Below are positions 29,029 to 56,959 of a stretch of 64,000 nt of DNA, piece after piece. The stretch covers positions 3,410,001 to 3,474,000 of the forward strand of contig JABRWF010000006.1 of the NCBI GenBank assembly GCA_018343915.1, written 5' to 3'. Within the stretch, counting starts at the first letter, position 1. Each line of letters opens with the position of its first letter. Origin of the DNA: Agroathelia rolfsii (Eukaryota; Basidiomycota; Agaricomycetes; Amylocorticiales; Amylocorticiaceae). The notes beneath the pieces were generated by a model. That model was not told the origin of the DNA and did not search any database. It worked only from the letters and a program-made list of their open reading frames with translations. The position numbers and the translations under genes are program-made.

Positions 29029-29446
29029 TTCCTTGACCAACACCATGATAGCAACCATTTTTTGCATCTGGTTGCCTATATATTTCCAATTTTGCTGGTT
29101 GTAGATCGATTTGTATCCATTTGTCCATATTTCAGGCAATTTACAAAGCTCAGAAATCCACGTACCAAGTCGGAAGTTCGGATGTATGACGCTAATGCAT
29201 ACATGACCCTGCGCCTCCTTATAGAGATTTTTGAAGCATTTTGGGGAATTTGGGCCGAGATATAGTGTTGAAACTCTGACGGAGAATATCCAGTCTTTGG
29301 CGCTGGCTTACGCGCTGACTGCGGCAGGAGAGATTGCATAGTATGTGGGAGGCGAAAGCGCGTAGCACTTTCTAATTTTGAAGAACCCACTCGTAGCTGG
29401 AGGAAGGTACATATTAGTAGGTGCAGGCCGTATCATATACGTAGCT
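29029..29446. other. MAK21 downstream region
   Basis: No gene recognised. It contains a short direct repeat (GTAGCTGGaGGAAGGTACAT near 29393 and again near 29441) at the point where homology to the right arm of the palindrome begins. Confidence 0.4.
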
Positions 29447-29978
29447 GGCGGAAGGTACATAAATGTAAGCCGTGGCGCATTATAAGAGAGTAGGGTCATG
29501 CCAGCCACATCCGTTTGGCTCAAATTTAAGAAAGTCTTATACAATGACTGAAACCACCTGAGGTAACGCGGACCCAGAACCTCAGCGCTCGGCACTGAGT
29601 GCGCTACTAAGCGCGTGCCTAGACAACTCGGAAGATCAACGATTTGCTATGGCTCTATACGTCACAGCACTCTTGTGTGGCGTCGACCAGTGAATTCAGA
29701 CAGAAGAATTAAGATATTGCAAAGTAAAACGCCGAGTATATGCGCTTCAAGACATGAATATGAGACAATAAAGCCGAACTTGAAGTTGTTTATCGTAATT
29801 TCATTGATATTTCGATTGATATATGAGTCGTACTGCTATGTGAGTCGTGGCATCCCGTCCACAATCCAACCATGTAAAGCGTCTGCCTTGGCAAATATGT
29901 TGTAAAAAGCTACGCAAACACCTGGTAGCCAATGATTTCATTCCGTCCCTTGGTACCAACATATAACCTCCGGTTGTG

Positions 29979-31120
29979 TCAAACACCTACCTTGGTAACG
30001 GAATAATTGAGATCCCAGGTCGACACACCCGTCCATGTCCCCGTTGTCTCGACCTCAAGCTGAGTCTCCTTGGAGCGTAGCACAAGCGTATAAGGCACTT
30101 GGAGCTGGCCACGCTGAACTGTAGCCACTGCTTTGAAGCTCTGTTCCGGGCCAGCTTTGACCGTCATCGATGACTTCCACAACTGATTGAATGTGTTGGC
30201 GTCGCCGAACTTCCACGTCACATCTGTGTACGGCTTGACTTGGAACTTTCCGTTTTCTATAGCCGGGATCCCAGCTGAAAATTAACTCATCATTAGCAAG
30301 TGTAGGCGGGGAGACTCAGTAGAGCGCGAGGGTGATAGGATCATAACAGCCTTATATGATTATTGTATTCCGGGGTCAGTAACGTACCATTGAACGTAAA
30401 TCCAGATGCGATTGTAAATCCAGCAGTGTACTCCCACGTAGCAGTCTGTGGCTGAGCCTGGTTAAGTTCAAAGTCTAATTCCGTGTCGTCAACTGTATCG
30501 TTCTTGAGCGTTTGCGTTTCCAGCGTATACGGAGCCGCGTCTTTTATAGTGGCAAGTTCAAGATTGTAGTTGACTTGGACAAATTCCATGTCTTCGAACA
30601 GGAACGAGAAGTACTGGTCAGAGTAGACGTCGGTCGCCGGGACGTTGCCTAGATAGGGCTCCGCAACACGACTGAAGACAACCGTGTTTGTATATGGGCA
30701 CACAAGTCGAAACATATTCACATAATTCGGATCTTGGCTCGGCTCAAGCTTGAACCAGCTGTGAGAAAGAATTAGTCTAAATAGCTCCCATCCGTCTAGT
30801 AAGTCCCACAAATAGTAGACTTACTTGTCCACGTAGTAAGTTGGATTCGGGTCATCGTATCCGATATGCCAGACATAGGGCGCGGCGAAGGTGCGAGAGT
30901 ACAAGAACTTGCCCGACACCTTTCCCTTGATGAGGTACAGACCCGCATACTCCCCTGTCCCGGGGATAAGCGAGAAAAATTGATCATCGAATTCGTTCTG
31001 GTATGGGTAGTAGAAGACCTCTGGCTCGGGGGCATTACGCGAAACGAGGACCTGTTGGCTATCATGACCCAAGAGACGGAAGTAAATGCCTGGAGGTGGG
31101 ATGTAGAAGTAGCTGCTCAT
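29979..31120 (-). CDS. LSL-type pore-forming lectin (left copy)
   Basis: Homologue of the Laetiporus sulphureus lectin family: an N-terminal beta-trefoil (ricin-B-like) carbohydrate-binding half (about residues 1-150) followed by an aerolysin-like pore-forming half (about 150-320). Exons 31120-30825, 30758-30388, 30274-29979; phases agree, 320 residues, close to the family's usual ~315. No signal peptide, as in other cytoplasmic mushroom lectins. Family members bind galactose-type glycans and are regarded as defence proteins against predators; that role here is inferred. No breaks are seen. It is identical to the right-arm copy at 48879-50020. A TATATAA lies at 31198-31204. Confidence 0.9.
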
Positions 31121-34100
31121 GCTGCTAATGGAAAACTTGAAGTACTACAATCGGGGAGTGGATTGAGAGTGATCAGTACCAGCAGTAACCGCTCATATTA
31201 TATACCTTTGAGCAGACACCCCCAAATTCATCATGTCATACCATTGGCAGTATGAGAGCGGGCTATGACCGCGCCGGCTTCAAGTTATTGTGACATAGAT
31301 CCTGGCATGCCTGACATACAGAAGCTACCCCAGCACTCGAGAACGGCTCCTACAACCCCAAATTGTTATGCTGCAAATACTCGGATTCCATTTGTTCCTA
31401 AGTATAGAGCTCAGGCGAAGCGAGAAATATACCTTTCTCTCCTTGACCTTGATTCATGACCGGATAATTATTCTACTGACCAGTATTTATGACAAGTTTG
31501 TGTACCCACTCTCTGCAATATGGCCCAGGCATGCGTTTGTAAGCAATGACTCGGACCATCCATTTGCTCATAGCAGAGCCCATGGGTCCAGTTGAAACTG
31601 TGAAGACGGTAATCCATAGGTACATCGTGTATGCGCCAACCATATGAATATGAAGCCCAGTAGTGCGAACGGTTTGTGGCCCGTTCGTCACGGTTGACAT
31701 AATACTAGTGCGTACTTGACATTCACCACTGGTTCCGAGTCATGACTAATGGAAAACCGTTGAAACGCCGAGCAACAGGTGATAGGCGCTGGACGTAAGC
31801 TAAGGGCCAGTAAGTATATACAAATATCCGAATGAATAGATATCCAAGAATACCAAGTTCATCGATGTTGAATTCAATACATAACATGCTAGGTACGACT
31901 GCAGGAACGTTTTCATCGGGAGCTGCTCTTGCCCGGGCCATGATCTTCCCCAGTACCTCACTCATCTCCGACTCATCGATTACTTGCAATGGTGTATGTC
32001 AGGTTCATATGCACAAGGTGGTCAGATGAGACCTTACTGCAGTGTATTATAAGATGTTGAGTAATGTGATGCATTTGAGGTCACGGCACTTGTCTTTCGA
32101 TGCGAAGACCTGACTTGATATCCGCGGTCAATGCAGAGAATTGTTGCTGCCAGGGTAAATTGAGAGTAGGATTCATGATAGAGAGCACTCTAGGTGCAAA
32201 TAACCACTATAACTTGATTAATTCGGACTGAGTGTGTGCGTATGAACCTTATTGGGTACCACAAACTTAAACTTGGTAAAGGCAAAGAAGAGTGAGAACG
32301 AGATATTATAATCGAGCAATCAACCCAGATTCCCAGAGCAGTAGAAAAACAGGAAAAAGAAAGCCATAATGGACAAAGAGGAACTGTGCCAAGGCTAGTC
32401 GACGGGGATCGAGTCCACCCGAGTCGTCATCATAGGTACACGGTGAAAGCGAGGATATTGCAAGTGCAGACTACTGGTTCATTACCAGTAGAAAACAACC
32501 GAAATGCCCAGCTACAGATGATAGGCGCTCGAAGCAAGCAAGGGCCATTAAATATATATAAAAACCCAAATAAGGTAGATGTCAAGTCCGTCGATAGTGA
32601 ATTGAATGTACTCGCGGGTCGTAAAAGTTTCCGTGAATCACGTGGTAGCCACACTCAGCCACCCGGCTGCTTCGACATATCAATATCTTTCTTAATGTTT
32701 CACGCTGAACTGAGAAAATACCAGGACTATTCATCAAAGGTTTAGCTACTTACAGAAACCTGCAAGGGACCTTACATCACCTTCTGGTGTGAAATTCTGA
32801 GGGAGATATTGTGGTCGAAGATGTGGCTCGGTATAGCTACTAGTACCACATGATCCACGGAAACTTTTGCGACCCGCGAACTAGTATAGGATGCTAGGTA
32901 CGAACGGAGTAACTCTTTCACGAAGAGCTGCTACGGTCTAGGCCATGATCAACAATATTCCTGGTACCTCACCAATATCCGACCCATTGATTAGTTACAA
33001 TAATATATGTCAGGTTCATGTGCACGAAGTGGTCAGATGAGACGTTACCGTATTATCTGATCTTCAGTAATGTGCGGCATTATGTGCTGCACTGGAAGCA
33101 ACCTGAAGTCACGTTACTTGCCCTTCAGTAGAAAGACCTGGCATAATATCCGCGGTCATGCTGAGAATCGTTACTGTCAGGGCAAAGTGAACGTAAAACT
33201 CACGATAGGGGTTGTACATTTGTATTGGTAGCTGCCAGTGCCGAAGATGCATGGTACCAACAGCAAGTGCTCAGGCCATAAATCCTTTTTTTTACGCTCT
33301 ATAGCTTGAACATGTGACGAATGGTAACGAGGAGATTCCTCTACATCTCAGTCTTTGGCTAGTACCACAAGAAGTTTGTTCATTGGGTGTACTAGCATTT
33401 GAAGTTGGGCCTAACTGTAACGATGTCATTCAAGTTCATTCATGTTATTATCAGTGGACAATCTGGTGAAAGAATACTAATAGCCCAATTTTATCATGAT
33501 GCACGAAGAATATGTATATAGATCGTGCTGAATGACATGCGTTGTGCTCGGTAATCCAGCCCAAGTCAGAGAAGAACAGCATCTAGGATATTTGTTAACA
33601 ATTTATAACATAGATCACCCTAATATAGTTAAGTACCAGGGGAGTGGTGAGTTTTGATACATGTATACCGCATCATGTACCAAAAGCAAACTACGGTGTA
33701 GAGAGAGCTGTAGTGTAAATTACGCGGGATAAGGAAGTGTGGTGTGTAGTGGCAAAAGGGTTATTGTGAGTTGATATCAATTGTCACCTTGTGCTGCATC
33801 AGGAAAACATGATTTTTCTGAACCTCTAAAGGCGTCTAAGGTCATCTAATACTACAGTGGCATGCATCTGATGTTTCTGAGCGACTGAAATTGAAGGAAG
33901 CTCCTGAGTCGGTTTTAGCTATAGTGTAATACAATTACTTTGCAACCAACTTCTCGGGAGTGAAATGTCTCCCTTCATAAGAGGGCTATGATCTGATATG
34001 CTACGCTATCATGACGGGAGTGTGATGAGGTATGTATATGAACCAGTTGTATCAAGATTTACGTACTGCAGAATCCAAACACTGAAAACGAGGAAAAGAG

Positions 34101-34731
34101 GACCAACTACAAGTACTTTTCATCTGTGACACTCTTGTGATACCCCTATTCTCTCAACCAAAACGTCCCTAGCCATGTGACGCTTGACTACGAGGCCGAT
34201 AGAAAAGCTTGTTACACTTGTGCATACACGGCTACATAAGCAAAACCATTAGCCTTACTCGACATTCTTATATGCAATACACCTTGGGGCTCTTTTGATT
34301 ACAATCCTAGAATGTATAGTTACTCTCTAAGAATATTATCTCTGATGTTTTCATAAATTTTGGAGGTTATAATTTACTCCGAAAAATCCGTATCAGCTTA
34401 AAACTTGGCTAATGAAGAACGGATTTTCTTCCTCTTGAGCTACACTTATTTAATCCACTTAAGAAAAATGCTGTACATTCTCGGCCTGTACTTCTTTGAA
34501 TATTGAGCAAAAATTTTGCATGACCATGCTCGGGCGATAATATATAAATGTGGTTGCAAAGCATCTATCTAAGATACATTGTACTATTGATCTTTAGAAC
34601 TTCAACCTCAACTTCCACTGCTACGCGCCGGTCCGCACGCCGCTTCTTCATATGGACCCTATAAGCCATAAATGCAAGCAATTTGAAGCAGCAGTACTAA
34701 GCGCTTCTATTTAGCCATTTAAACAGCTAGT
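31121..34731. other. Gene-poor interior of left core
   Basis: No intact gene. It contains two diverged direct copies of a ~450 bp unit (31735-32180; 32480-32610 continuing at 32881-33220), a MITE-like insertion (32611-32880), and a segment at 32180-32470 that recurs in diverged form at 38755-39030. A fragment at 31723-31989 (-) resembles decayed coding sequence but has no recognisable domain. Confidence 0.5.
32611..32880. mobile_element. MITE-like element with long terminal inverted repeats (left)
   Basis: About 270 bp. The ends CTCGCGGGTCG...CGACCCGCGAA are inverted repeats; similarity continues inwards for about 80 bp (blocks such as TTTCCGTG and GTGGTA, then CTTCGAC near both ends). It interrupts one copy of a direct repeat, so the empty site can be compared with 31850-31880. 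A TA flanks both sides. No coding capacity. Confidence 0.6.
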
Positions 34732-34851
34732 ATGGCTCGTTTATATCCCAAGGACCAGATGGATCAGTTCAAGGTAATTCAGACAATCTTTTACCAGGGT
34801 AAATGTGACATGATTAAGGAGATTAAGAGTGAGCAGTGGTGGAAGAGCTGA
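34732..34851 (+). CDS. Small ORF, 39 residues, unrecognised (left)
   Basis: ATG to TGA, product MARLYPKDQMDQFK... ending QWWKS, rich in Lys, Gln and aromatic residues. No family recognised. Being inside the homogenised core, its identity to the right copy is not evidence of selection. It may be a relic of a larger gene. Confidence 0.2.
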   Translation: MARLYPKDQMDQFKVIQTIFYQGKCDMIKEIKSEQWWKS

Positions 34852-35040
34852 TTGTTGTGGACTAAAAGTGTAGCAACTATATCCTCAAAAAAATAAATGG
34901 TGCAACAACTGCCTTCTAATCTCGAGAAAATAAGATAATTTTTATTATCAGTTTTTCTTTCTGTGTAATCTGTGACATTTAAATTGATTTTGATGAGACA
35001 CTAGTAGGATATCGCTCAATCCAGTTATTTTTTGAATTTG

Positions 35041-35666
35041 TTAGGCTGGGATAATCTCGAAGACTTCATTCGGAGGGTAATAAGGAGGCTCGGAAAGCCC
35101 AACAATCAATGGATGGCACTTGATCTGTAAAAGTAAAAGAAAAAAAAAATCTAATGGCAAATAGTCAATATTATTAAATAAAGAAGTCCTTACCTGCTCG
35201 TTAGGCTCATCGGGAGCCACCCAACCCCTTGACCGGTCCTGTGTGGTTATACTGAAAAAACATTGTATAAATATTTCAGCGTGAAGCAAAACAAAAACAA
35301 ATGATAACCTACATATAATGATTTTCTTCATTCCGTGGAGCAGCCTCAATACGCCAATTTTCAGGTTGCGCCATATCTGGGAGAAGAACTGCAAAGACTG
35401 AGTCCTGTACACCGGCAGTTGGGCTGCCTCTGGCTTTCATAATGTAACCGTTCAAGTCTACTTTTTCGATTTCCCACTATCACGCTCAAACAGTGAATAA
35501 TCATGATCCCCGAGCTAGTACAAGGACTGACCGTAGGGCCTTGGACCTCTGAAGGAAGCAAGACGACCCGCTTTGGTAAGAGGGTCTTATCTTCCACAGG
35601 GGCACGACCGACGGCATTGCCAGTAGCAACGCTTCGGATGATATAGGTGCCAGATTGAAGAGACAT
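35041..35666 (-). CDS. I66-type serine protease inhibitor (cospin/cnispin-like), left copy
   Basis: Small beta-trefoil inhibitor as known from Coprinopsis (cospin) and Clitocybe (cnispin). Exons 35666-35532, 35476-35313, 35251-35194, 35124-35041; 146 residues, the family's usual size. Visible family features: N-terminal SLQSGTYIIRSV, a central ARGSPTA, NWRIEA, GWVAP and the C-terminal PLIVG...PPYYPPNEVFEI. No signal peptide. Members inhibit trypsin-like proteases and are thought to act in fruiting-body defence; the target here is not predictable. TATATAA at 35726-35732. Identical to the copy at 44333-44958 and diverged from the paralogue at 52479-53127. Confidence 0.85.
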
Positions 35667-37675
35667 TTCTGAGGGTTTCAAAACTTGGAGATGGTAGATG
35701 CACAAATGTCAACCTACCTGGGTTGTTATATATCTAGTCATAACCTGATTTTAACCAGTATGCTATATGACGCTGAAGAGCATCTGAGTCTGATTAATTC
35801 TAGCAAGACTGGAGATTAACCGCGGTGAATCTAAAGTAGTCACAACAGCTCTCCAAGTCCAATACTATAGTGCTTCTGGCCGAGTAGTATGTCAAACTGT
35901 GGCTACGTCAATACATGAAACGAATAGCGCAAAATTTACATGCCTAAAACGCGACAAGGTTCCAGGCTTGTATGACGTATTTCGCTCGATCCCAATACCT
36001 TCATTATCTTCATGGAGATAGACCTCCCAAAGTGGAATGCTACGTGGGTGGAGAGAAGCGGTGCAAAATGCATTACAGTCAAACCTGCATATATTTCTTC
36101 ATCCACAATAGAACTTATAAAACATTTACCCTATTCACTTCATGTATTGAATGGGTCATCCAAGGACATGAATATGCATCATAATGACCGCAGCAGGCCT
36201 ACACCGGGTCAAATTGGGATGTTACTTGATCCATCGTTGTCGATTGATATAGGATGAATACTATTCGTGACATCACTGTTGCATGTCCTATGGAAGCTAT
36301 TACAAGCTCCTACAATATAGGATCTTTTTTTCATTATCATAGATGGAACTTGCGACAACAATGTAGTGTGTGCTTGGAATATCGGTATTGTACTGTTGTA
36401 TAGGCATAGTGTTAACTTAAGGTACACAGCACGCGCAGTGAAGCCATAGACCAGAACGTTTGGGATAATTTGAGAGTACATAAGGAAAAACAGATCATCA
36501 CTCAAGTGTAAAAACTCAGGAAAGTACACGAAGAAAACCAAGTCTGTCGACAGCTCATCGGATATGCCATTAGCGGATGCTCGGTCAAGGCATAGAGGTG
36601 GAGCGGCAGTGCAGAACTGTTATTGAGCGCATAATTTCATCATTATTCCATTAGTCTTATTGCGTCCCAAGATCATGATACACGCACAATATCGTGAGAT
36701 GATATACTGATATGACGCTTCATAATATGCAAAGTGGTTCATTCAACCAGGATCATCCCCAATTTCAGCCACCATTTACTCATGCATGCGCTTATGAATT
36801 ATTAAGCCGCATCGAATTTAGGATTAAATTGAGCCATGGTATAGGAGCGATATCATTCAACATCATATGTGCAAAGACTACCAATTTTGAATTATCTGTA
36901 TCTTGGGTGATATCATGAGCGTTAAGAAAAGGTTTTTGGTTGGTGCCAACACGGTACTAAATCAATGCACCAATAGTCAATAGGCATCCGTATTCCGTAG
37001 GCTCCATATACATACAGAATACTGGATGAGGATCGTTCGTTCACTTTCTGTACAAAGACCGAGACATAGATTAAGCGCCAAAACGGATGGGTACCTGCCG
37101 GCGTACATAAGAGAGCTACTGGAAATATGGCACAAACCGATCATGCCAGACGACCAGACTAGGAGGATGAGGCCTCGACATAAGAATGATTTGGTTGAGC
37201 TATGATGATAGAATCTACAGAGACGAAATATTAAGATTATATTGTTGTAAACAAGTAGCAGGGCTTCGGATAGGGTGCCTAGCCAACCAATAGTGCTACC
37301 AAAAATAATGTAATTACCATTTCCCCAAAATGTTATGGCTTGTTACATACATTTTTGTCAAGATGAAAAGGCTAGCTAACCCGTATTTATGGAGAACGGT
37401 GGCCAGCGGCGGTGCATGGAAAAAGCGCCAACGAAGTGTCTCGCTCCATCAGGTTGAATCTGGGTCATGATTGTCAGGTTTGAAGTATTGTACCAAATTA
37501 GACAAGAGCAGTATTCTGGTACAGCATGATTCAGATGAAGGAAAGCACCTCAATCTTGTTGAACACGGAGAGAGTGGTGAGTCCAAACATGTTTATAGCA
37601 AACTAGTGGTCTAGGAGAGACAGGCTAATAATATGAGTAGGAATCATGAGCATAAATGGAAGGATTCGTCCCTAC
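35667..37675. other. Gene-free part of left arm
   Basis: No gene recognised; short open frames lack conserved features. The identical core ends within it at 36769, after which the sequence drifts away from the right arm. Confidence 0.45.
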
Positions 37676-38443
37676 CGTATGAAGGCCAAAATATCAGTCA
37701 AGCACTCCCACTCAAATTTTTGCATTTCCGGCCAGTCAATGTCTACCCCGGCGAAGTCAGGTTCAGACTTGAATTTGGCAGGCGCTGGTGGGGATAACCA
37801 GTTCTGGTCGCCCGTAGCATGGAATAGCTGCCCATGAACGAGCGAATGAAACGGCTCAGTTCCCTTGGGCTGGGGGACTTGTAAGATGGAATTACGTGTT
37901 AGAGGTTCATTTATTTATGCGTCTGATCATTGAAATTTTAAACCTACGCGAGCTAATACCGAAAATCTGTCCAGTGATTCTCCATTTCCCGCGATCTAAT
38001 AGCAACGACCCACTATTGCGCATGAATTCGTCCTTGAGAACCCATCCGCCAGTGCCGACGAACATAGCTTCGTTAATTTGTCTGTGACGATCTGGGTTAT
38101 CTTTTTAGTAAATTGGAAGTGCAATATAGAAAAAGATATATCACCATATGTCTGCCAATTCAAGACAGCAAAATGCGACCCGTCTCTCCAGAATCTAACG
38201 GGGTCGAGGTTGCTTGACTGGATGCGTGTACCTCGTGGATAAACACGCCACATATTAGTAATACTCTTCTCAATCAATCCCTTCTTGTTATCATCAGACT
38301 CCTTGCGAAGTGACAACATCGCCGACTCAGATATATTAACCAAGAAATGTTTTGGATCCAGTAATCTCTCCAGCAGCCACCCCTTCTTTGGCTTTATGCT
38401 ATGGGGGTAGAAGCCCATGGCAGCCAGCTCCGGAGAGATCTTC
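37676..38443 (-). pseudogene. Truncated phospholipase C copy
   Basis: Matches exons 4 (3' part), 5 and 6 of the intact PLC gene at 40159-42189, in reverse orientation. It starts abruptly at codon ~KISPELAA of the linker, so the whole X domain is missing, and a deletion of ~420 bp removes exon 7. The Y-domain motif [11 protein letters not shown] reads [11 protein letters not shown]. Splice sites are partly altered. It has no catalytic histidines and cannot be functional. Confidence 0.85.
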
Positions 38444-40158
38444 ATAAACAAAAGATGAAATGTGATGAGAAACTAGCACGTTCAAATAGACCGTGGATCG
38501 ATGATTCTGACGTAGAAGCAAAACACCTACAAAGGTGATGAAGAAGTAAAGGGGTATGTAGCAAGAAAGCAGAGGCTCAAGGCAATGACCTTGAAGATGT
38601 CGGATTCAAGGTCTAGCCTGGTTTTCCGGATGTTTCGATGATGAATATGAAAAAAAAAAAAATAGTGATACTGAAGAAGCACCCGCGAGGCTCGTATTGA
38701 ACTGGTATTTCGTGAGTTGATTTGTTTCGTTGTGACTCCGACAGGTTATGAAAGTGAGCACTCTAGGTGCAGATGACGGTGATAGCTTGATTTGTTTGCA
38801 CTGCAAGTTTCCTTATGGGCTTCATCGCGTACGACAGACTTGGTAAAAGCAGAGAAGGATGAGAGTGGGATAATATAATTCAATAATTAACTCATAACAG
38901 TAGAAAAGGAGGGAAAGGAGATCTGTAAAGAACTAAGAGGAACTGTGTCAAGGCCAGCCGACAGGGATTGAGTCCACCTGAGTCATTATCAATAGGCACG
39001 CGGGGAAAGCGAGGCAGTCGGGAGCGCAGATGATATTGCAGCGAGTAAGATGAGCGGCAATAATAGATAGGGATGTAAAACAATAGAGGAAATAACAAAG
39101 ATTGACTGTGCGACTGCGCGAAAACGAGCACGTGTGACAAAATGGACGGTCTGTATGAAGAAAAGCCCCTCTCTCCTCACGCTACATGGCCTACTGTCTT
39201 TGGAGCATGCTGGCGGGTAGTGCACATGAGAGTGGTAGGGCGGAAGCCCGAAGCGCTTTTCGATCGCGGCCGGGAATCGTGTCACCCGAAGGGAATAGAG
39301 GTGAGCAGCGGTCAGGTGGGTTAGGTACATCGTCCCCGTGCTGCTCGTTCCCTTGTTTTTGAAAATTCTCAGGATCAATTTCAGACTAGGATAAGGTGGT
39401 CGGGATTTGCAAGGGATTGGTGGATAAGGCGAATTCCGAGTACGACATTAGCGGGCGGAGTGGAAGGCGACTTACTGCCTTGTAGCATCCACCCTGGGCG
39501 GGACACCGCTCCATCCCGGCGTCGTACCTCCTTGGCAGAAAGCGCTGGCTTCCAGTGCGTACCAACTCTTTGACAGACGACCTTTTACGGTGATCTCGAT
39601 GCTTTGGCACCGAGTACTACGTCTATCGGATCCGCAATCCGTAACCCGAAACTGGGCTCATTGTCAAACGTGCGATTCCATGAGGGCTCTGCGAAGATAA
39701 TTGAGAAAAGTTCTGAGGATGACATCTGGTATAAGAAAGAAGGCATCCAGCTACTGCAGGGGGTCATAGTCATGGCTGGAATTCATTGAACAAGTCCATG
39801 AACAAAACCACTGGTAGCCTCGGAAGATCGGACCGCGGACCGTGACCATGGTAAAAGTTAAACAATGCCATACTAGTACATACACGCATGCAGTGGCATC
39901 TTCAAGTTCGCTATTCAAGTTCAGAGCTCTAGGCAGGATCATTATGATATGACTTGAGCCTTGAAGGTCATATTTGACTGAATACTGCATACATGTACCG
40001 GATATTCGATGACTGTAACCAACTGCAAGTTGCTAATGGAAACAGGGACTATTTATATCGTTTTTCAAATAACAAAAAAGTTTCTGAACCGTACCGAGCC
40101 ACTGGCAGCACAAGCGAAATCGTCTCCCTCTCCCTCTCTCTCACTATCAAACGACAAT
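38444..40158. other. Palindrome hinge, left part
   Basis: Single-copy sequence between the arms. It holds a MAK21 fragment (38531-38770), a diverged copy (38755-39030) of the segment seen at 32180-32470, and an unexplained stretch at 39600-39790 whose + frame has coding-like composition (DDIWYKKEG) but no recognisable gene. Confidence 0.5.
38531..38770 (+). pseudogene. MAK21 exon 8-9 fragment
   Basis: Resembles 28350-28600 of MAK21, including the end of exon 8, the intron and the start of exon 9 (CAGGTTATGAAAG versus CAGGCTATGAAAG). It has an A-run, frameshifts and stops. Because the intron is kept, it arose by DNA duplication and not by retroposition. Confidence 0.75.
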
Positions 40159-42189
40159 ATGGCTGAATATGATGTCGACAACCAGTGGATTGCTGCGGCA
40201 TCTCAAGTGTTGACATTCGATACTCATCTGAACATCAAGCCGTTAGACGGCTCCACTAGACTCAGTTCGAACGTTCTTGCCTTTCTGGATTCACAAGGCT
40301 TGGTAAAGACATGCCTCGTTAGCTGAACACTCCAGCAGGGCTGATCATTCTACTCTAGACACCTGAGGACGTGTTCAACTCTCCAATCGTCTCACCGCCT
40401 CCCGTGGATGACTCACAGCCGCTTACACATTACTACGTATCGTAAGTGATCTGATTGGATGACCCACGTGTGATAGACTCTAATACGTGGCGTAACCTTC
40501 TAGAACCTCTCATAACACATACCTTCTCGCCCGCCAAATCCTCGGACGTGCATCGTCCTGGTGTTACATCCATGCCCTCGCCACTGGAGCGCGCTGCGTC
40601 GAGATTGACGCATGGCCAAACAAAGACCACACGGACATAATCGTCACCCACGGACATACATTCAGCACCTCAGTCACATTCGAGAGTGTTTGCATAGCCA
40701 TTGCTGATTCGGTAAATGACGACGATTGGCCTGTGTTTGTGAGCTTAGAGAATCATGTCCCACCAAGTGGGCAGCAACGTATGGTCGATGTCATGCAGAG
40801 TACTTGGGGTGAGAGACTTGTACGGAAACAGCTTGAAGGGATCGATGATGAGACCATTTCGCCTCGCGATCTCAAGGGTCGCATTCTGTTAATGGTGTTT
40901 GCCATTTCAATCCTCTTGGCTATCGTTTGATCACTTACAAGCTTCCAAGGTCGAGTATTACCCTCCAAATACACAAAGTCTCGAAGAAGAAGTGGAAAAC
41001 GAGAAGCTCGAGAGTGACGAGGATTGCTCCTCTGCAGAAGAAGCCGAAGCCCCCGACTTCCTAGAAAGGCTGGAAAACGAACTTGGCTTTCCCTTCCACC
41101 GGCGTCGCAAACCCAAGAAAAGCGAAGAAGCGTCGAAGATCTCTCCAGAGCTGGCTGCTCTGGGGTTCTATGCCCGCAGCATGAAGCCAAAGAAGGGGTG
41201 GCTGCTGGAGAGATTACTGGATCCAAAACATCTCTTGATTAATATATCCGAGTCGGCGATGTTGTCACTTCGCAAGGAGTCTGATGATAACAAGAAGGGA
41301 TTGATTGAGAAGAGTATTACTAATATGCGACGTGTTTATCCACGAGGTACACGCATCCAGTCAAGCAACCTTGACCCCGTTAGATTCTGGAGAGACGGAT
41401 CGCATTTTGCTGCCTTGAATTGGCAGACATATGGTGATATATCTTTTTTCTATATGGCACTTCCAGTTTACTAAAAAGATAACTTAGATCGTCATAGACA
41501 GATTAACGAAGCTATGTTCGTCGGCACTGGCGGATGGGTTCTCAAGGACGAATTCATGCGCAATAGTGGGTCGTTGCTATTAGATCGTGGGAAATGGAGA
41601 ATCACTGGACAGATCGTCGGTATTAGCTCTCGTGAGTTTAAAATTTCGGTGATCAGAAGCATAAATAAACGAACCTCTAACACGTAATTCCATCTTACAA
41701 GTCCCCCAGCCCAAGGGCACCGAACCGTTTCATGCGCTCGTTCATGGGCAGCTATTCCATGCTACGGGCGACCAGAACTGGTTATCCCCACCAGCACCCG
41801 CCAAATTCGAGTCTGAATCTGGCTCCGCCGGGGTAGACATTGATTGGTCGGAAATGCAAAAATTTGAGTGGGAGTGCTTGACTGATATTTTGGCCTTCAT
41901 ACGGTAGGGACGAATCCTTCCATTTATGCTCATGACCCCTACTCACATTGAAATTATTATCTTTAGTCTGACGGTAATCCAATCCACTTCCTCCCCTGAA
42001 TCTGGTCTCTTACAAGCGCTCGAGCAAGACCTCGACTTGGGCAACAAACATACTCGGCTGGCCGTATTTTGTGCCCGCGCTGACCATATCCAAAGCGGAT
42101 GGCACTTGATCCCCCTGTTGGATATGAAGGGGAAGGGTACTATTACGGGGGCTACGATGTTGGTAAATATTAAGGTTGAAAATATTTAG
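40159..42189 (+). CDS. PLC1: Phosphoinositide-specific phospholipase C
   Basis: Hydrolyses PIP2 to IP3 and diacylglycerol at the plasma membrane. Exons 40159-40302, 40359-40441, 40504-40894, 40950-41433, 41488-41631, 41702-41903, 41967-42189; phases agree, 556 residues. X domain (~70-205): SHNTYL with the first catalytic His, VEIDAWP, VTHGHT with the second His, SLENH. Acidic linker (~210-245). Y domain (~285-385): [30 protein letters not shown]2-like domain follows, starting near [14 protein letters not shown]. No EF-hand or PH region is visible, so it is a short fungal type. It sits at the hinge; its 3' part (from 41135) belongs to the right palindrome arm. Confidence 0.9.
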
Positions 42190-44332
42190 GATCTAATGTA
42201 TGTGGATTTTTGGTGGGGAGAATTATTCTTAACTAAACTTTGTATGTTCGAAATGGCGAATATCATGATACGGTTATCATGAGAGCAATGCATTTGTACG
42301 GAAGATCTCATAAAGACTAGTACTGCAAAGACACGCGCCAGTATTACTTAAGCGGTGCCATGCAAGACTCGGTCACGGTGCCGACCTGTCTCTCTCTATA
42401 AACATGTTTGGACTCACCACTGGCATTCTCTCCGTGCTCAACAAGATTGAGGTGCTTTCCTTCATCTGAATCATGCTGTACCAGAATACTGCTCTTGTCT
42501 AATTTGGCACAATACTTCAAACCTGACAATCATGACCCAGGTTCAACCTGATGGAGCGAGACACTTGGTTGGCGCTTTTTCCGTGCACTGCCGCTGGCCA
42601 CTGTTCTCCATACATACGGATTAGCTAGTCTTTTCATTTTGACACAAATGTATGTGATAAACCGTAACGTTTTGGAGAATGGGGACTGCATTGTTTTTAG
42701 TAGCACTATTGGTTGGCTGGGCACCCTATCTGAAGCCCTGCTACTTGTTTGCGACAACATGATCTTGACATTTCGTCTCTAAAGATTCTATCAGCATAGC
42801 TTAACCGAATCATTCCTATGTGCAGGCCTCATCTTCCTGGTCTGGTCATATGACATGATCGGTTTGTGCCATATTTCCAGTAGCTCTCTTATGTACGCCG
42901 GCAGGTACCCATGCATTTTGGAACTTAATCTATGTCTCGGTCTTTGTAAAGCAAGTGAACGAACAGTCGTCATCCAGTATTCTGTATTCATATGGAGCCT
43001 GTCGTATACGGATGCCTATTGAATATTTGTGCATTGATTTAGTACCGTGTTGGCACCAACCAAAAACCTTTTCTTAACGCTCATGATATCACCCAAGATA
43101 CTTCAACTTCAAAATAGGTAGTCTTTGCATATATGATGTTGAATGATATCGCTCCTATACCTTGGCTCAATTTAATCCTAAATTCGATGCAGCTTAATAA
43201 TTCATAAGCGCATGCATGAGTAAATGATAGCTGAAATTGGGGATGATCCTGGTTGAATGAACCACTTTGCATATTATGAAGCGTCATATCAGTATATCAT
43301 CTCACGATATTGTGCGTGTATCATGATCTTGGGACGCAATAAGACTAATGGAATAATGATGAAATTATGCGCTCAATAACAGTTCTGCACTGCCGCTCCA
43401 CCTCTATGCCTTGACCGAGCATCCGCTAATGGCATATCCGATGAGCTGTCGACAGACTTGGTTTTCTTCGTGTACTTTCCTGAGTTTTTACACTTGAGTG
43501 ATGATCTGTTTTTCCTTATGTACTCTCAAATTATCCCAAACGTTCTGGTCTATGGCTTCACTGCGCGTGCTGTGTACCTTAAGTTAACACTATGCCTATA
43601 CAACAGTACAATACCGATATTCCAAGCACACACTACATTGTTGTCGCAAGTTCCATCTATGATAATGAAAAAAAGATCCTATATTGTAGGAGCTTGTAAT
43701 AGCTTCCATAGGACATGCAACAGTGATGTCACGAATAGTATTCATCCTATATCAATCGACAACGATGGATCAAGTAACATCCCAATTTGACCCGGTGTAG
43801 GCCTGCTGCGGTCATTATGATGCATATTCATGTCCTTGGATGACCCATTCAATACATGAAGTGAATAGGGTAAATGTTTTATAAGTTCTATTGTGGATGA
43901 AGAAATATATGCAGGTTTGACTGTAATGCATTTTGCACCGCTTCTCTCCACCCACGTAGCATTCCACTTTGGGAGGTCTATCTCCATGAAGATAATGAAG
44001 GTATTGGGATCGAGCGAAATACGTCATACAAGCCTGGAACCTTGTCGCGTTTTAGGCATGTAAATTTTGCGCTATTCGTTTCATGTATTGACGTAGCCAC
44101 AGTTTGACATACTACTCGGCCAGAAGCACTATAGTATTGGACTTGGAGAGCTGTTGTGACTACTTTAGATTCACCGCGGTTAATCTCCAGTCTTGCTAGA
44201 ATTAATCAGACTCAGATGCTCTTCAGCGTCATATAGCATACTGGTTAAAATCAGGTTATGACTAGATATATAACAACCCAGGTAGGTTGACATTTGTGCA
44301 TCTACCATCTCCAAGTTTTGAAACCCTCAGAA
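42190..44332. other. Gene-free part of right arm
   Basis: Counterpart of 35667-37640. It includes the ~420 bp lost from the left arm. No gene recognised. Confidence 0.45.
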
Positions 44333-44958
44333 ATGTCTCTTCAATCTGGCACCTATATCATCCGAAGCGTTGCTACTGGCAATGCCGTCGGTCGTGCCCC
44401 TGTGGAAGATAAGACCCTCTTACCAAAGCGGGTCGTCTTGCTTCCTTCAGAGGTCCAAGGCCCTACGGTCAGTCCTTGTACTAGCTCGGGGATCATGATT
44501 ATTCACTGTTTGAGCGTGATAGTGGGAAATCGAAAAAGTAGACTTGAACGGTTACATTATGAAAGCCAGAGGCAGCCCAACTGCCGGTGTACAGGACTCA
44601 GTCTTTGCAGTTCTTCTCCCAGATATGGCGCAACCTGAAAATTGGCGTATTGAGGCTGCTCCACGGAATGAAGAAAATCATTATATGTAGGTTATCATTT
44701 GTTTTTGTTTTGCTTCACGCTGAAATATTTATACAATGTTTTTTCAGTATAACCACACAGGACCGGTCAAGGGGTTGGGTGGCTCCCGATGAGCCTAACG
44801 AGCAGGTAAGGACTTCTTTATTTAATAATATTGACTATTTGCCATTAGATTTTTTTTTTCTTTTACTTTTACAGATCAAGTGCCATCCATTGATTGTTGG
44901 GCTTTCCGAGCCTCCTTATTACCCTCCGAATGAAGTCTTCGAGATTATCCCAGCCTAA
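44333..44958 (+). CDS. I66-type serine protease inhibitor (right copy)
   Basis: Mirror-identical to 35041-35666. Exons 44333-44467, 44523-44686, 44748-44805, 44875-44958; 146 residues, four exons with intron phases 0, 2, 0. TATATAA at 44267-44273, 66 bp before the ATG. Same domain reasoning as the left copy: a cospin/cnispin-like beta-trefoil inhibitor, cytosolic. Intact. Confidence 0.85.
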
Positions 44959-45147
44959 CAAATTCAAAAAATAACTGGATTGAGCGATATCCTACTAGTG
45001 TCTCATCAAAATCAATTTAAATGTCACAGATTACACAGAAAGAAAAACTGATAATAAAAATTATCTTATTTTCTCGAGATTAGAAGGCAGTTGTTGCACC
45101 ATTTATTTTTTTGAGGATATAGTTGCTACACTTTTAGTCCACAACAA

Positions 45148-45267
45148 TCAGCTCTTCCACCACTGCTCACTCTTAATCTCCTTAATCATGTCACATTTAC
45201 CCTGGTAAAAGATTGTCTGAATTACCTTGAACTGATCCATCTGGTCCTTGGGATATAAACGAGCCAT
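45148..45267 (-). CDS. Small ORF, 39 residues, unrecognised (right)
   Basis: Mirror of 34732-34851; same reservations. Confidence 0.2.
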   Translation of the reverse strand: MARLYPKDQMDQFKVIQTIFYQGKCDMIKEIKSEQWWKS

Positions 45268-47118
45268 ACTAGCTGTTTAAATGGCTAAATAGAAGCGCTT
45301 AGTACTGCTGCTTCAAATTGCTTGCATTTATGGCTTATAGGGTCCATATGAAGAAGCGGCGTGCGGACCGGCGCGTAGCAGTGGAAGTTGAGGTTGAAGT
45401 TCTAAAGATCAATAGTACAATGTATCTTAGATAGATGCTTTGCAACCACATTTATATATTATCGCCCGAGCATGGTCATGCAAAATTTTTGCTCAATATT
45501 CAAAGAAGTACAGGCCGAGAATGTACAGCATTTTTCTTAAGTGGATTAAATAAGTGTAGCTCAAGAGGAAGAAAATCCGTTCTTCATTAGCCAAGTTTTA
45601 AGCTGATACGGATTTTTCGGAGTAAATTATAACCTCCAAAATTTATGAAAACATCAGAGATAATATTCTTAGAGAGTAACTATACATTCTAGGATTGTAA
45701 TCAAAAGAGCCCCAAGGTGTATTGCATATAAGAATGTCGAGTAAGGCTAATGGTTTTGCTTATGTAGCCGTGTATGCACAAGTGTAACAAGCTTTTCTAT
45801 CGGCCTCGTAGTCAAGCGTCACATGGCTAGGGACGTTTTGGTTGAGAGAATAGGGGTATCACAAGAGTGTCACAGATGAAAAGTACTTGTAGTTGGTCCT
45901 CTTTTCCTCGTTTTCAGTGTTTGGATTCTGCAGTACGTAAATCTTGATACAACTGGTTCATATACATACCTCATCACACTCCCGTCATGATAGCGTAGCA
46001 TATCAGATCATAGCCCTCTTATGAAGGGAGACATTTCACTCCCGAGAAGTTGGTTGCAAAGTAATTGTATTACACTATAGCTAAAACCGACTCAGGAGCT
46101 TCCTTCAATTTCAGTCGCTCAGAAACATCAGATGCATGCCACTGTAGTATTAGATGACCTTAGACGCCTTTAGAGGTTCAGAAAAATCATGTTTTCCTGA
46201 TGCAGCACAAGGTGACAATTGATATCAACTCACAATAACCCTTTTGCCACTACACACCACACTTCCTTATCCCGCGTAATTTACACTACAGCTCTCTCTA
46301 CACCGTAGTTTGCTTTTGGTACATGATGCGGTATACATGTATCAAAACTCACCACTCCCCTGGTACTTAACTATATTAGGGTGATCTATGTTATAAATTG
46401 TTAACAAATATCCTAGATGCTGTTCTTCTCTGACTTGGGCTGGATTACCGAGCACAACGCATGTCATTCAGCACGATCTATATACATATTCTTCGTGCAT
46501 CATGATAAAATTGGGCTATTAGTATTCTTTCACCAGATTGTCCACTGATAATAACATGAATGAACTTGAATGACATCGTTACAGTTAGGCCCAACTTCAA
46601 ATGCTAGTACACCCAATGAACAAACTTCTTGTGGTACTAGCCAAAGACTGAGATGTAGAGGAATCTCCTCGTTACCATTCGTCACATGTTCAAGCTATAG
46701 AGCGTAAAAAAAAGGATTTATGGCCTGAGCACTTGCTGTTGGTACCATGCATCTTCGGCACTGGCAGCTACCAATACAAATGTACAACCCCTATCGTGAG
46801 TTTTACGTTCACTTTGCCCTGACAGTAACGATTCTCAGCATGACCGCGGATATTATGCCAGGTCTTTCTACTGAAGGGCAAGTAACGTGACTTCAGGTTG
46901 CTTCCAGTGCAGCACATAATGCCGCACATTACTGAAGATCAGATAATACGGTAACGTCTCATCTGACCACTTCGTGCACATGAACCTGACATATATTATT
47001 GTAACTAATCAATGGGTCGGATATTGGTGAGGTACCAGGAATATTGTTGATCATGGCCTAGACCGTAGCAGCTCTTCGTGAAAGAGTTACTCCGTTCGTA
47101 CCTAGCATCCTATACTAG

Positions 47119-47388
47119 TTCGCGGGTCGCAAAAGTTTCCGTGGATCATGTGGTACTAGTAGCTATACCGAGCCACATCTTCGACCACAATATCTCCCTC
47201 AGAATTTCACACCAGAAGGTGATGTAAGGTCCCTTGCAGGTTTCTGTAAGTAGCTAAACCTTTGATGAATAGTCCTGGTATTTTCTCAGTTCAGCGTGAA
47301 ACATTAAGAAAGATATTGATATGTCGAAGCAGCCGGGTGGCTGAGTGTGGCTACCACGTGATTCACGGAAACTTTTACGACCCGCGAG
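47119..47388. mobile_element. MITE-like element (right)
   Basis: Mirror of 32611-32880, within the identical core. Confidence 0.6.
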
Positions 47389-48794
47389 TACATTCAATTC
47401 ACTATCGACGGACTTGACATCTACCTTATTTGGGTTTTTATATATATTTAATGGCCCTTGCTTGCTTCGAGCGCCTATCATCTGTAGCTGGGCATTTCGG
47501 TTGTTTTCTACTGGTAATGAACCAGTAGTCTGCACTTGCAATATCCTCGCTTTCACCGTGTACCTATGATGACGACTCGGGTGGACTCGATCCCCGTCGA
47601 CTAGCCTTGGCACAGTTCCTCTTTGTCCATTATGGCTTTCTTTTTCCTGTTTTTCTACTGCTCTGGGAATCTGGGTTGATTGCTCGATTATAATATCTCG
47701 TTCTCACTCTTCTTTGCCTTTACCAAGTTTAAGTTTGTGGTACCCAATAAGGTTCATACGCACACACTCAGTCCGAATTAATCAAGTTATAGTGGTTATT
47801 TGCACCTAGAGTGCTCTCTATCATGAATCCTACTCTCAATTTACCCTGGCAGCAACAATTCTCTGCATTGACCGCGGATATCAAGTCAGGTCTTCGCATC
47901 GAAAGACAAGTGCCGTGACCTCAAATGCATCACATTACTCAACATCTTATAATACACTGCAGTAAGGTCTCATCTGACCACCTTGTGCATATGAACCTGA
48001 CATACACCATTGCAAGTAATCGATGAGTCGGAGATGAGTGAGGTACTGGGGAAGATCATGGCCCGGGCAAGAGCAGCTCCCGATGAAAACGTTCCTGCAG
48101 TCGTACCTAGCATGTTATGTATTGAATTCAACATCGATGAACTTGGTATTCTTGGATATCTATTCATTCGGATATTTGTATATACTTACTGGCCCTTAGC
48201 TTACGTCCAGCGCCTATCACCTGTTGCTCGGCGTTTCAACGGTTTTCCATTAGTCATGACTCGGAACCAGTGGTGAATGTCAAGTACGCACTAGTATTAT
48301 GTCAACCGTGACGAACGGGCCACAAACCGTTCGCACTACTGGGCTTCATATTCATATGGTTGGCGCATACACGATGTACCTATGGATTACCGTCTTCACA
48401 GTTTCAACTGGACCCATGGGCTCTGCTATGAGCAAATGGATGGTCCGAGTCATTGCTTACAAACGCATGCCTGGGCCATATTGCAGAGAGTGGGTACACA
48501 AACTTGTCATAAATACTGGTCAGTAGAATAATTATCCGGTCATGAATCAAGGTCAAGGAGAGAAAGGTATATTTCTCGCTTCGCCTGAGCTCTATACTTA
48601 GGAACAAATGGAATCCGAGTATTTGCAGCATAACAATTTGGGGTTGTAGGAGCCGTTCTCGAGTGCTGGGGTAGCTTCTGTATGTCAGGCATGCCAGGAT
48701 CTATGTCACAATAACTTGAAGCCGGCGCGGTCATAGCCCGCTCTCATACTGCCAATGGTATGACATGATGAATTTGGGGGTGTCTGCTCAAAGG

Positions 48795-48801
48795 TATATA
48801 A
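48795..48801 (+). promoter_or_regulatory. TATA box of right lectin gene
   Basis: TATATAA, 84 bp upstream of the ATG. The three inhibitor genes have the same heptamer 66-86 bp upstream (44267, 35726-35732, 52393), suggesting a shared promoter type. Confidence 0.5.
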
Positions 48802-48878
48802 TATGAGCGGTTACTGCTGGTACTGATCACTCTCAATCCACTCCCCGATTGTAGTACTTCAAGTTTTCCATTAGCAGC

Positions 48879-50020
48879 ATGAGCAGCTACTTCTACATCC
48901 CACCTCCAGGCATTTACTTCCGTCTCTTGGGTCATGATAGCCAACAGGTCCTCGTTTCGCGTAATGCCCCCGAGCCAGAGGTCTTCTACTACCCATACCA
49001 GAACGAATTCGATGATCAATTTTTCTCGCTTATCCCCGGGACAGGGGAGTATGCGGGTCTGTACCTCATCAAGGGAAAGGTGTCGGGCAAGTTCTTGTAC
49101 TCTCGCACCTTCGCCGCGCCCTATGTCTGGCATATCGGATACGATGACCCGAATCCAACTTACTACGTGGACAAGTAAGTCTACTATTTGTGGGACTTAC
49201 TAGACGGATGGGAGCTATTTAGACTAATTCTTTCTCACAGCTGGTTCAAGCTTGAGCCGAGCCAAGATCCGAATTATGTGAATATGTTTCGACTTGTGTG
49301 CCCATATACAAACACGGTTGTCTTCAGTCGTGTTGCGGAGCCCTATCTAGGCAACGTCCCGGCGACCGACGTCTACTCTGACCAGTACTTCTCGTTCCTG
49401 TTCGAAGACATGGAATTTGTCCAAGTCAACTACAATCTTGAACTTGCCACTATAAAAGACGCGGCTCCGTATACGCTGGAAACGCAAACGCTCAAGAACG
49501 ATACAGTTGACGACACGGAATTAGACTTTGAACTTAACCAGGCTCAGCCACAGACTGCTACGTGGGAGTACACTGCTGGATTTACAATCGCATCTGGATT
49601 TACGTTCAATGGTACGTTACTGACCCCGGAATACAATAATCATATAAGGCTGTTATGATCCTATCACCCTCGCGCTCTACTGAGTCTCCCCGCCTACACT
49701 TGCTAATGATGAGTTAATTTTCAGCTGGGATCCCGGCTATAGAAAACGGAAAGTTCCAAGTCAAGCCGTACACAGATGTGACGTGGAAGTTCGGCGACGC
49801 CAACACATTCAATCAGTTGTGGAAGTCATCGATGACGGTCAAAGCTGGCCCGGAACAGAGCTTCAAAGCAGTGGCTACAGTTCAGCGTGGCCAGCTCCAA
49901 GTGCCTTATACGCTTGTGCTACGCTCCAAGGAGACTCAGCTTGAGGTCGAGACAACGGGGACATGGACGGGTGTGTCGACCTGGGATCTCAATTATTCCG
50001 TTACCAAGGTAGGTGTTTGA
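48879..50020 (+). CDS. LSL-type pore-forming lectin (right copy)
   Basis: Mirror-identical to 29979-31120. Exons 48879-49174, 49241-49611, 49725-50020; 320 residues. Beta-trefoil lectin half followed by an aerolysin-like half, no signal peptide, no break. The stop at 50018 follows a possible splice donor (AAG|GTAGGT), so a slightly different C-terminus is possible, but the length already matches the family. Confidence 0.9.
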
Positions 50021-50540
50021 CACAACCGGAGGTTATATGTTGGTACCAAGGGACGGAATGAAATCATTGGCTACCAGGTGTTTGCGTAGCTTTTTACAAC
50101 ATATTTGCCAAGGCAGACGCTTTACATGGTTGGATTGTGGACGGGATGCCACGACTCACATAGCAGTACGACTCATATATCAATCGAAATATCAATGAAA
50201 TTACGATAAACAACTTCAAGTTCGGCTTTATTGTCTCATATTCATGTCTTGAAGCGCATATACTCGGCGTTTTACTTTGCAATATCTTAATTCTTCTGTC
50301 TGAATTCATTGGTCGACGCCACACAAAAGTGTTGTGGCGTATAGAGCCATAGCAAATCGTTGATATTCCGACTTGTCTAGACAGGGGCTCAATGCACTTG
50401 GCGCTCAGTCTCTGAGTTTGTTACCTTAGAATGTCTCGGCCATCTTCTAAGACTATCCTGAGTTTGACTCATATGAATATGGCTGGCATGATTCTACTCT
50501 CTTGGAACGTGTCATAGCTCGCATTTATGTACCTTCCGCC

Positions 50541-52392
50541 TGTGATTTTGTCAAGCCAGCCAGCCAGCCAGAATCAATACAAAAAGCAAGATAAAATTCC
50601 GCCTGTCATTGTACTTGGTCGCGGTACGCCGACAAACGAATGCCGGTACAAACTCAACACACAGCTACTCTAAATACCATGTCACGCTACGCGTGACTGT
50701 TACTACGTCACACATACTCCGTAGCTATGGATTGCTATTCTAACACCGCCAGCTATGTATATGAGGTCACAAAGCCATTGAAAGGCCCTTAATTATTATT
50801 ATTACTATTATTATTACTGATGTGACACAAGGCGAAAATTTCTATCAACTTTCGTGCGCCGCCATTTGGGATGTACCGATCAATCGTCATTTGGGCTCTT
50901 ATTCGACTCTTTCCTTCCGGACCCAGGCTCAGCATCCAGTATCAGTATAAGGGTCCTGTGACTAGCTCTCAAAGACGCGGTAAGCCTGAATCGTAATTCA
51001 AGGGGAATAACTTGTCATTACTTGCAATTTAGTTAGAACTTGATTATATGGCACTAAATTCAATACATGACTGTACATCCACCGATGAGTTGTTTACATA
51101 CTCAATTGTCCTCGTCAAATGGTAATATTCTCTTGATCACATAGTTACATTTGTATCTTCCGAGCCTTTCTTGGTTATGGGACTACTAGCATGCGTGCTT
51201 TGTACCTTCTCAAGAGATGACATGCTCATGCAAAGACGACAACACAACACTACGCCAACATTCCAAATTTCAATCGTGGTCTCAATTTTGCTAACCGTTT
51301 TCTCTAGCAACCGCATCACCAGGGTTGCTAGCGGCTCCTTTGATTCACGCATTGGAGACGCCATGAGTAACATCTATTTTGTATCAATGCAGTATTCATC
51401 CCTCGGGTTCAACCCGAGCAAAGTGGGCAGCCTATCGGTATCGCTAGGATAGCAACGTGTTACATTAGCTCTATCACTTCACGAATTAAACAGAGCTAGT
51501 GTAAGTGATCGACTACCATCACATGTTTACTATCGCCTACCTGGGAAGGCTAACAAGCTCTTGCATTTGTAATTGAATTTTCAAAGCACCATGACACATT
51601 TTGCACCACCTTCACTATAAGCAAATTTGAGTTTAAACACTCCTACACGCGCTAAGTTTCGTTTTATCTTCCATATAGACGGTAGGACAGATAACAATAC
51701 AAATGAGGAGTATTCAGACTTGAATAGACAACAGCTTCACCCTTTGTGTTTTCCATAACCACATAACATGACGGACACCAATAAATTCCATCTCAATTGG
51801 CAAGAAGTCTATCTTTCGGGGATGCTTTGCATGCTAGTGATGACATGTATACTAGGGAATAGAAATTCTGTTACACTTCCAATTTATATCAACACACCTA
51901 TGCAAGTATAATTCCATGTCCTATACAACACCTCGAGCTTGCTCGTTTTAAATAAAATACAATACAACATACATACATACATAGATTCAATAGATGAAGA
52001 AAGAGCGAAGGTATAAGAAATTGCGTTTAGGGTATCTTTGGCCAATGAAAACGCCCCCTTGGGGTGGAGCTGTTTTGAATGAAAATTGAATTTGAGAGCC
52101 AAAAGACCATTTCCTCTATGTACATGCAAGTAGATGTAAGTATATATGAGGCCTACTTGAAGCGCGTGTATAGTATTTCATCACACTTCAAGAATACAAG
52201 TTCTGTGCTATTCGCTTTGTACTGGAATTTAACCACGAGCGCTCTGTCAGAAGACCTATGTAGAGCTCCAAGACCATTATGACTTCCCCCTTCTAGAATA
52301 AGCCATATTCTGTTCGGCTCCTGTGACGGTGGTGCCAGTGGTCCGTGACGTAAAGAGGGTAATAAGCGATTAAAAACAAGTTATCCTCCTCA
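50541..52392. other. Intergenic region right of palindrome
   Basis: No confident gene. It contains a (GCCA)n run near 50560, an ATT microsatellite near 50790 and a CATA repeat near 51965. An open frame at 51171-51452 has no recognisable domain. Confidence 0.45.
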
Positions 52393-52399
52393 TATATAA
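52393..52399 (+). promoter_or_regulatory. TATA box of third inhibitor gene
   Basis: TATATAA 86 bp before the ATG at 52479, in the same arrangement as the arm copies. Confidence 0.45.
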
Positions 52400-52478
52400 C
52401 AACTTGAAGTTATAAAGGACCTAGGTAAGCGTATATACCAATACTAGTTACCTCCATCTTTCAAAGCTCTCCTATAGT

Positions 52479-55032: not shown

Positions 55033-55123
55033 ATAATCATAAGATGGGCTGATTTTAATATTTCAAATTATATGGCACCGAGGCGCTATTCTAGTACAAT
55101 ACTAATAGCTATGTAAAATATAG

Positions 55124-56775: not shown

Positions 56776-56959
56776 GCTAGTAAGTAACTCGTGAGCAGAC
56801 CCGGAAACAAGCTCAGGATACCAACGTTCCTGTAGGATGTGACAAGTATATGTCACGTTCCACGTGACTCATTACCATCACGCTCTGCCAAGCCTCGCAG
56901 CGACTACGGTTTCGAAAACGACTGCGTTTGAATCATCTCAGGTCTGAGTTGCATCGACT

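Follow-up and report, generated by a model that had tools for sequence, protein, structure and literature searches.

An inverted duplication with a sharply bounded identical core in a fungal genome assembly, probably homogenised by arm-to-arm gene conversion

Introduction

How can the two arms of an inverted duplication be identical over several kilobases and yet differ by many substitutions on either side of that tract? This question is raised by a locus within a stretch of 64,000 nucleotides (C6:3410001-3474000, here called the window, to which all positions without a contig name refer) of a fungal genome assembly of 37.67 Mb in 8 contigs; one genome was analysed, at the assembly level. Conversion between the arms of inverted repeats is a well-known process (accessible parts of PMC3723533, PMC7292649, PMC12510652 and PMC12844118). 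For palindrome P6 of the human Y chromosome, the available text of PMC3723533 gives conversion tracts with minimum lengths that average 2,068 bp and reach up to 9,023 bp, and conversions far commoner than inversions. A tract of about 7.1 kb, as would be needed here, therefore has precedent in the P6 range.

Results

Two inverted arms share an exactly identical core

BLAST, a direct letter check and a global alignment (29000-38600 against reverse-complemented 41000-51000) showed two inverted copies of about 9 kb each that flank a unique spacer (Table 1). As originally predicted, position x pairs with position 79,999-x without mismatch or indel over 7,079 bp, so that 29691-36769 is the exact reverse complement of 43230-50308; the first mismatches beyond this core lie at 29690 and 36770. 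The predicted divergence of the edges, by many substitutions and a deletion of about 420 bp, was likewise borne out. The outer side (29447-29690) has 53 mismatches in 232 aligned columns (22.8%) and two gaps, one of 2 and one of 10 bp. The inner side (36770-38443) has 133 mismatches in 1,673 columns (7.95%); here arm A lacks 421 bp in four gaps (384, 19, 12 and 6 bp), and there are two further 1-bp gaps. Mismatches are confined to the edges, and the limits of the core are sharp.

At the rate of the inner edge about 563 differences would be expected in the core, and, with sites taken as independent, the probability of zero differences is about 10^-255. The 95% upper bound of core divergence is 4.2e-4, about 0.5% of the inner-edge divergence. 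Differences within the inner edge are unevenly distributed (variance/mean 2.2 in 50-bp bins), and its longest identical run, which measures 87 columns, does not stand out against shuffled data (p 0.08). At the outer edge, 32 changes are unique to arm A vs 15 to arm B.

A search of the whole genome with the core stretch 36000-36600 gave three matches (all 3 candidates scored), namely the two arms at 100% and one on contig C7 at 81%. With the whole arm as query, the matches listed (38 of 125 candidates) did not include the arms themselves and comprised matches longer than 300 bp at no more than 91% and short dispersed repeats at no more than 94%. Neither search, the second among the matches listed, found another near-identical copy of the core. 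Dispersed short repeats lie within the core at 32609-32879 and 33664-33769, mirrored in arm B; one core repeat has inverted ends and is MITE-like, and a core repeat unit of about 105 bp has at least 15 copies elsewhere in the genome (84-90%).

Table 1. Features of the inverted duplication and of the genes within it (window positions).
Feature	Position	Strand	Remarks
Arm A	29447..38443		BLAST and global alignment; C7 without a copy at the matching place (about 5.1 kb of other sequence)
Arm B	41135..50540		BLAST and global alignment; syntenic with the single C7 copy (reverse orientation)
Identical core, arm A	29691..36769		7,079 bp, 0 differences from arm B
Identical core, arm B	43230..50308		7,079 bp
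Inner edge, arm A, diverged	36770..38443		133/1,673 columns differ; lacks 421 bp that arm B and C7 have
Inner edge, arm B, diverged	41135..43229		Contains 3' part of PI-PLC gene
Outer edge, arm A, diverged	29447..29690		53/232 columns differ from arm B
Outer edge, arm B, diverged	50309..50540		Letter comparison with arm A
Hinge	38444..41134		2,691 bp; full length found only here; PI-PLC 5' part; orientation as on C7
Middle stretch, no counterpart at C7 locus	30609..36004 (mirror 43995-49390, arm B)		Lectin 5' part, I66 piece, dispersed repeats
Putative LSL-type lectin gene, arm B	48879..50020	+	Open pieces 48879-49178, within 49179-49655, and 49718-50020; candidate introns between
Putative LSL-type lectin gene, arm A, identical	29979..31120	-	Mirror of arm B
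I66 inhibitor gene, first part, arm B	44303..44635	+	PF16850, profile 1-45 of 146
I66 inhibitor piece, arm A, identical	35364..35696	-	Mirror of arm B
PI-PLC gene, approximate extent	40009..42189	+	X domain ORF 40496-40930, Y domain ORF 40899-41474
PI-PLC 3' fragment, arm A	37996..38443	-	Cut off at 38443

The homologous contig carries the locus once

On sequence comparison the genome reads as two haplotypes of a basidiomycete, apparently of the mushroom group, with C7 homologous to C6. The stretch C6:1000001-1004000 has one counterpart, on C7 (90%), and C1:2500001-2504000 has a full-length counterpart on C2 (94%) besides two short matches. C6 and C7 are collinear at 1.0 Mb and at 3.55 Mb (C6:3550001-3554000, 86-88%). 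The region of the window is inverted on C7 relative to C6, and nearby sampled places, which are repeat-rich, are also inverted or moved; C6 3305411-3310000 and 3429451-3482584 were found inverted and rearranged, at sampled places, vs C7 3313942-3318436 and 3328089-3375155. Repeats of the TTAGGGG(G) type stand in runs at three of the five contig ends examined, with 6 to 9 units within the terminal 200 bases; the other two ends, where C6 and C7 start, have only two units each. The best named relatives of window genes are from basidiomycetes: LSLa of Laetiporus, LBL of Laccaria and, for a 904-aa ORF, a single weak and distant match labelled Mycena galericulata. A hexokinase piece gave one match, at 94%, under the strict cut-off of 1e-100.

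The locus is present once on C7, where window 19451-29231, parts of 38871-39716, 39915-43995, 49390-50539 and 50751-57964 follow in order and in one common reverse orientation. As arm B, the hinge and both outer flanks stand in the order shared with C7, arm A is the extra copy on C6. At its place C7 holds 5,117 bp without match to the C6 sequence compared (E 1e-3), barring one stretch of 88 bp that resembles C7's own arm copy. Arm B and C7 both contain the 421 bp absent from arm A and can be aligned across them, so that the loss occurred in arm A. For the middle stretch, a loss from C7 is likelier, by inference, than a gain on C6, because a truncated remnant of the lectin gene is still present on C7. 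In its left half the hinge can be aligned to C7 in pieces only (parts of 38871-39716, 67-73% identity), and the comparison with C7 showed no net inversion of it. About 211 bp that border arm B on its outer side (50540-50750) are absent from C7, part of them 73% like a stretch near C7:3380.3 kb.

The core doubles a lectin gene and part of an inhibitor gene, and the inner edge a PI-PLC fragment

The three lectin pieces matched LSLa (1w3a) in order, at residues 4-92, 94-218 and 216-313 (E 6.5e-30, 3.3e-32 and 9.6e-22), and Pfam gave no match for pieces 2 and 3. The LSLa match takes in both the N-terminal beta-trefoil and the C-terminal module, which assigns the predicted product to the LSL-type (aerolysin-fold) lectins. 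With the middle piece, a whole-genome search gave four matches (all 4 candidates scored), which are the two arms and two pieces of the C7 allele; the piece is open throughout in the two arms only. The C7 pieces (C7:3354968-3355117 and C7:3355105-3355218) lie in different frames, this allele being truncated, and contain two in-frame TAG stops at about query residues 125 and 129. Since these stops fall inside the part that matches LSLa, they are not explained by read-through of an intron. Judged by its reading frames, the middle lectin piece has two open copies on one haplotype and none on the other.

The I66 piece matched PF16850 above the curated cut-off (E 1.1e-12), with profile positions 1-45 of 146 in one open piece; the remainder of the domain probably lies in a further exon. 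It also gave a weak PDB match to 'Serine protease inhibitor 1'. A genome search gave eight matches: besides the two arms there were six weaker matches interrupted by stops, and intron read-through may account for some of these. Next to arm B, 52455-52688 also resembles I66; it is likewise interrupted by stops (or introns) and is present on C7 too. One haplotype thus carries, in the core, apparent defence genes in duplicate, their function being predicted from family membership.

The PI-PLC gene spans the hinge and arm B, with the inner breakpoint of arm B (41135) inside it; hence arm A has only its 3' fragment. The stretches 40009-40326 and 41908-42189, which are without domain match, are probably further exons of this gene. 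Third-position changes numbered 6/11 for arm A, 5/6 for arm B and 12/16 for C7, too few for a test of decay in arm A.

Other features of the window and mating-type searches

Outside the duplication, 5898-15740 is a Copia-type LTR retrotransposon with 1,028-bp LTRs (99.8% identical) and, as read by eye, what appears to be a target-site duplication, TTGCG; integrase and reverse transcriptase domains were found in two of its ORFs. From position 1 to about 15.7 kb CpG is depleted (observed/expected 0.03-0.51 per kb), which suggests CpG methylation. No tRNA or Rfam RNA genes were found in the 64,000-nt window.

All four homeodomain matches exceeded the cut-off (4/4) and form divergent pairs at C1:1824636-1826050 and C2:1351695-1353022, while 14 control genomes gave none. 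Two such pairs, one on C1 and one on C2, are what two basidiomycete mating-type alleles would look like, and the pairs are probably the two HD alleles. No homeodomain match fell on C6 or C7 and no mating-type gene was found in the window; so far as homeodomain genes go, their location on C1 and C2 speaks against reading the window as a mating-type locus. A search for STE3 gave no match here, and the controls were likewise without match; the region, rearranged between C6 and C7, may still be linked to a pheromone/receptor locus.

Origin of the identity of the core

To place the differences between the arms, both were compared with C7. In the core, 199 of 1,596 alignable columns differ from C7 (12.5%), a comparison that covers 1,596 of the 7,079 core columns as C7 is without the middle 5.4 kb. 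At the inner edge, 181 of 1,662 columns differ from C7 in arm A and 174 of 1,662 in arm B (10.5-10.9%), and the two divergences are similar (p 0.08-0.17). The ratio of arm-to-arm to C7-only differences, in contrast, is 0:199 in the core vs 132:109 at the inner edge (Fisher p 3.9e-45, with independence of sites assumed). C7 aligns unbroken over both core boundaries, in the matches 29437-30609 and 36004-37625. A paralogue at C6:3373-3375 kb, 66-74% identical in three pieces (1,252 columns), served as a second outgroup: 37 informative sites unite arms A and B, 7 arm A and C7, and 11 arm B and C7. The sites place the arms as sisters with C7 outside, 18 of the 55 conflicting with this grouping. Because the arms are sisters relative to C7, either the duplication is younger than the split of C6 and C7, or its edges were converted in the past.

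These results support the view, put forward in the original prediction, that an old duplication was followed by conversion between the arms; the core-C7 rate, the unbroken C7 alignment at the boundaries and the sister grouping of the arms all bear on it. What characterises a homogenised palindrome was found at this locus, namely inverted arms around a unique spacer, an identity far higher than the age of the duplication would allow, and outgroup evidence from both C7 and the C6 paralogue. Therefore, we consider an old inverted duplication with a recent arm-to-arm gene conversion of the bounded core to be the probable history, and hold it with good confidence. Because divergence in the core is at most about 0.5% of that at the inner edge (95% bound), the last homogenisation is young relative to the duplication. 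The identity is also not a general property of inverted repeats in this region, since a control duplication in the same window has no homogenised core. Its copies (53669-54374 and 57043-57741), which flank a TsaD-type tRNA-modification gene, are 85.7% alike on C6; the duplication is also present on C7, with 92.4% identity of the first copy to its syntenic counterpart and 82.6% of the second. One contrast is left unexplained by a simple history of two steps, as the outer edge (about 23-25%) is far more diverged than the inner edge (8%).

A variant of this history is that the core has been kept alike over the long term by repeated conversion, in the manner of Y palindromes. The lectin and inhibitor genes lie inside the core and the broken PLC copy in the edges, which would suit it, as would the uneven density of differences at the inner edge; older small conversions or mixed constraint may there blur the age of the duplication. 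However, one identical tract is visible and a single event explains it. We hold repeated conversion to be rather unlikely, with the reservation that it is a sub-case of the preferred history and its probability overlaps with that one.

It could also be that the identity was made by the assembler or polisher, which would have put one consensus into the middle of both arms, and an inverted repeat of 7 kb in a genome with two haplotypes is a classic trouble spot. Against this, the differing edges (8% and about 23%) should separate the reads of the two arms, and true differences of 8% should normally survive polishing. The order and orientation of both flanks and of the alignable hinge agree with C7, and a chimeric palindromic read would have given identical edges as well. 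We therefore judge an artefact to be improbable.

The middle 5.4 kb of the core (30609-36004), missing at the C7 locus and holding dispersed repeats, might suggest that the core is mobile, or young in some other way, and entered two old and diverged copies by separate insertions. The identical core nevertheless runs 918 bp and 765 bp past this stretch, into sequence that C7 shares unbroken; since homology to C7 continues through both core limits, these are not the ends of an inserted element, which is thereby ruled out. Moreover, C7 has kept the broken 3' part of the lectin gene and so most likely lost the stretch, and no further near-identical copy was found with 36000-36600 or, among the matches listed, with the whole arm. 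Separate insertions are thus very improbable.

Finally, a single recent duplication with unequal change afterwards, fast at the edges and slow in a constrained core, deserves hardly any credit: the genes of the core could be under selection, but the core differs from C7 no less than the inner edge does, so that this rate comparison rules out constraint as the cause of the arm-to-arm identity, and long core stretches without recognised genes, as well as dispersed repeats, also show 0 differences between the arms.

Discussion

Under the preferred history of an old duplication and a recent conversion, the starting point would have been a C6 segment that reached from inside the PI-PLC gene through the I66 inhibitor and LSL-type lectin genes and is now arm B. 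After C6 and C7 had diverged, an inverted copy of this segment would have been placed beyond the 5' half of the PLC gene as arm A. The copies would then have diverged until about 8% of the inner edge differed, and the PLC fragment of arm A would have lost its 421 bp. Recently, one arm would have overwritten the other over about 7.1 kb by non-crossover homologous repair, be it gene conversion or a long tract from gap repair or a break-induced process, and the hinge would have kept its orientation on balance; an inverted hinge was rejected, since relative to C7 no net inversion is seen. The anatomy, the exact identity, the order of branching, the similar rates of core and inner edge relative to C7 and the orientation of the hinge are direct observations, from which we infer the recombination mechanism, its occurrence as a single event and its recency. 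A single recent tract of about 7.1 kb suffices to explain the core.

The locus is a new clean case, in a basidiomycete, of a process that is itself already known. Among the literature matches listed, which covered few subscription papers, no title named an LSL-lectin or I66 palindrome in a mushroom. Its exact ends, the diverged edges that act as internal controls and the outgroup on the homologue make it an unusually clean record of what is probably ectopic conversion in one long tract. From loci of this kind one can measure, for basidiomycetes, how long such tracts are and how often conversion occurs relative to inversion. The locus further suggests that a probable defence gene can be doubled and homogenised on one haplotype while on the other its allele is a broken remnant, a haplotype difference of a kind that a collapsed assembly would hide. 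One could speculate that, in a fungus with two haplotypes and in a rearranged region that pairs poorly, the palindrome serves as a private repair template: repeated conversion between its arms would maintain the sole intact copies of a defence lectin while the allele on the homologue decays. We regard this as unlikely; if true, such a palindrome would be a fungal counterpart of the gene rescue ascribed to Y palindromes, acting on a defence gene rather than a sex gene.

Centromere repeats of Candida tropicalis are alike between chromosomes. Like the arms described here they are inverted repeats of a fungus, and the accessible text of PMC7292649 describes them as homogenised; they are centromeric, whereas the present arms form a single gene-bearing locus without sign of centromere function. 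The P/R loci of Cryptococcus and Kwoniella resemble it in being inverted gene copies of basidiomycetes, for which repair by conversion within an allele is proposed in the available part of PMC12510652. Those repeats carry pheromone genes, while PLC, I66 inhibitor and LSL-type lectin genes are found here. With human Y palindromes such as P6 the locus shares inverted arms around a spacer, and those arms are kept alike by multi-kilobase non-crossover conversion with rare inversions, according to the portion of PMC3723533 drawn on here. Unlike them, it has arms of about 9 kb with one bounded identical tract and edges that have diverged by 8-23%, in a fungal host with two haplotypes.
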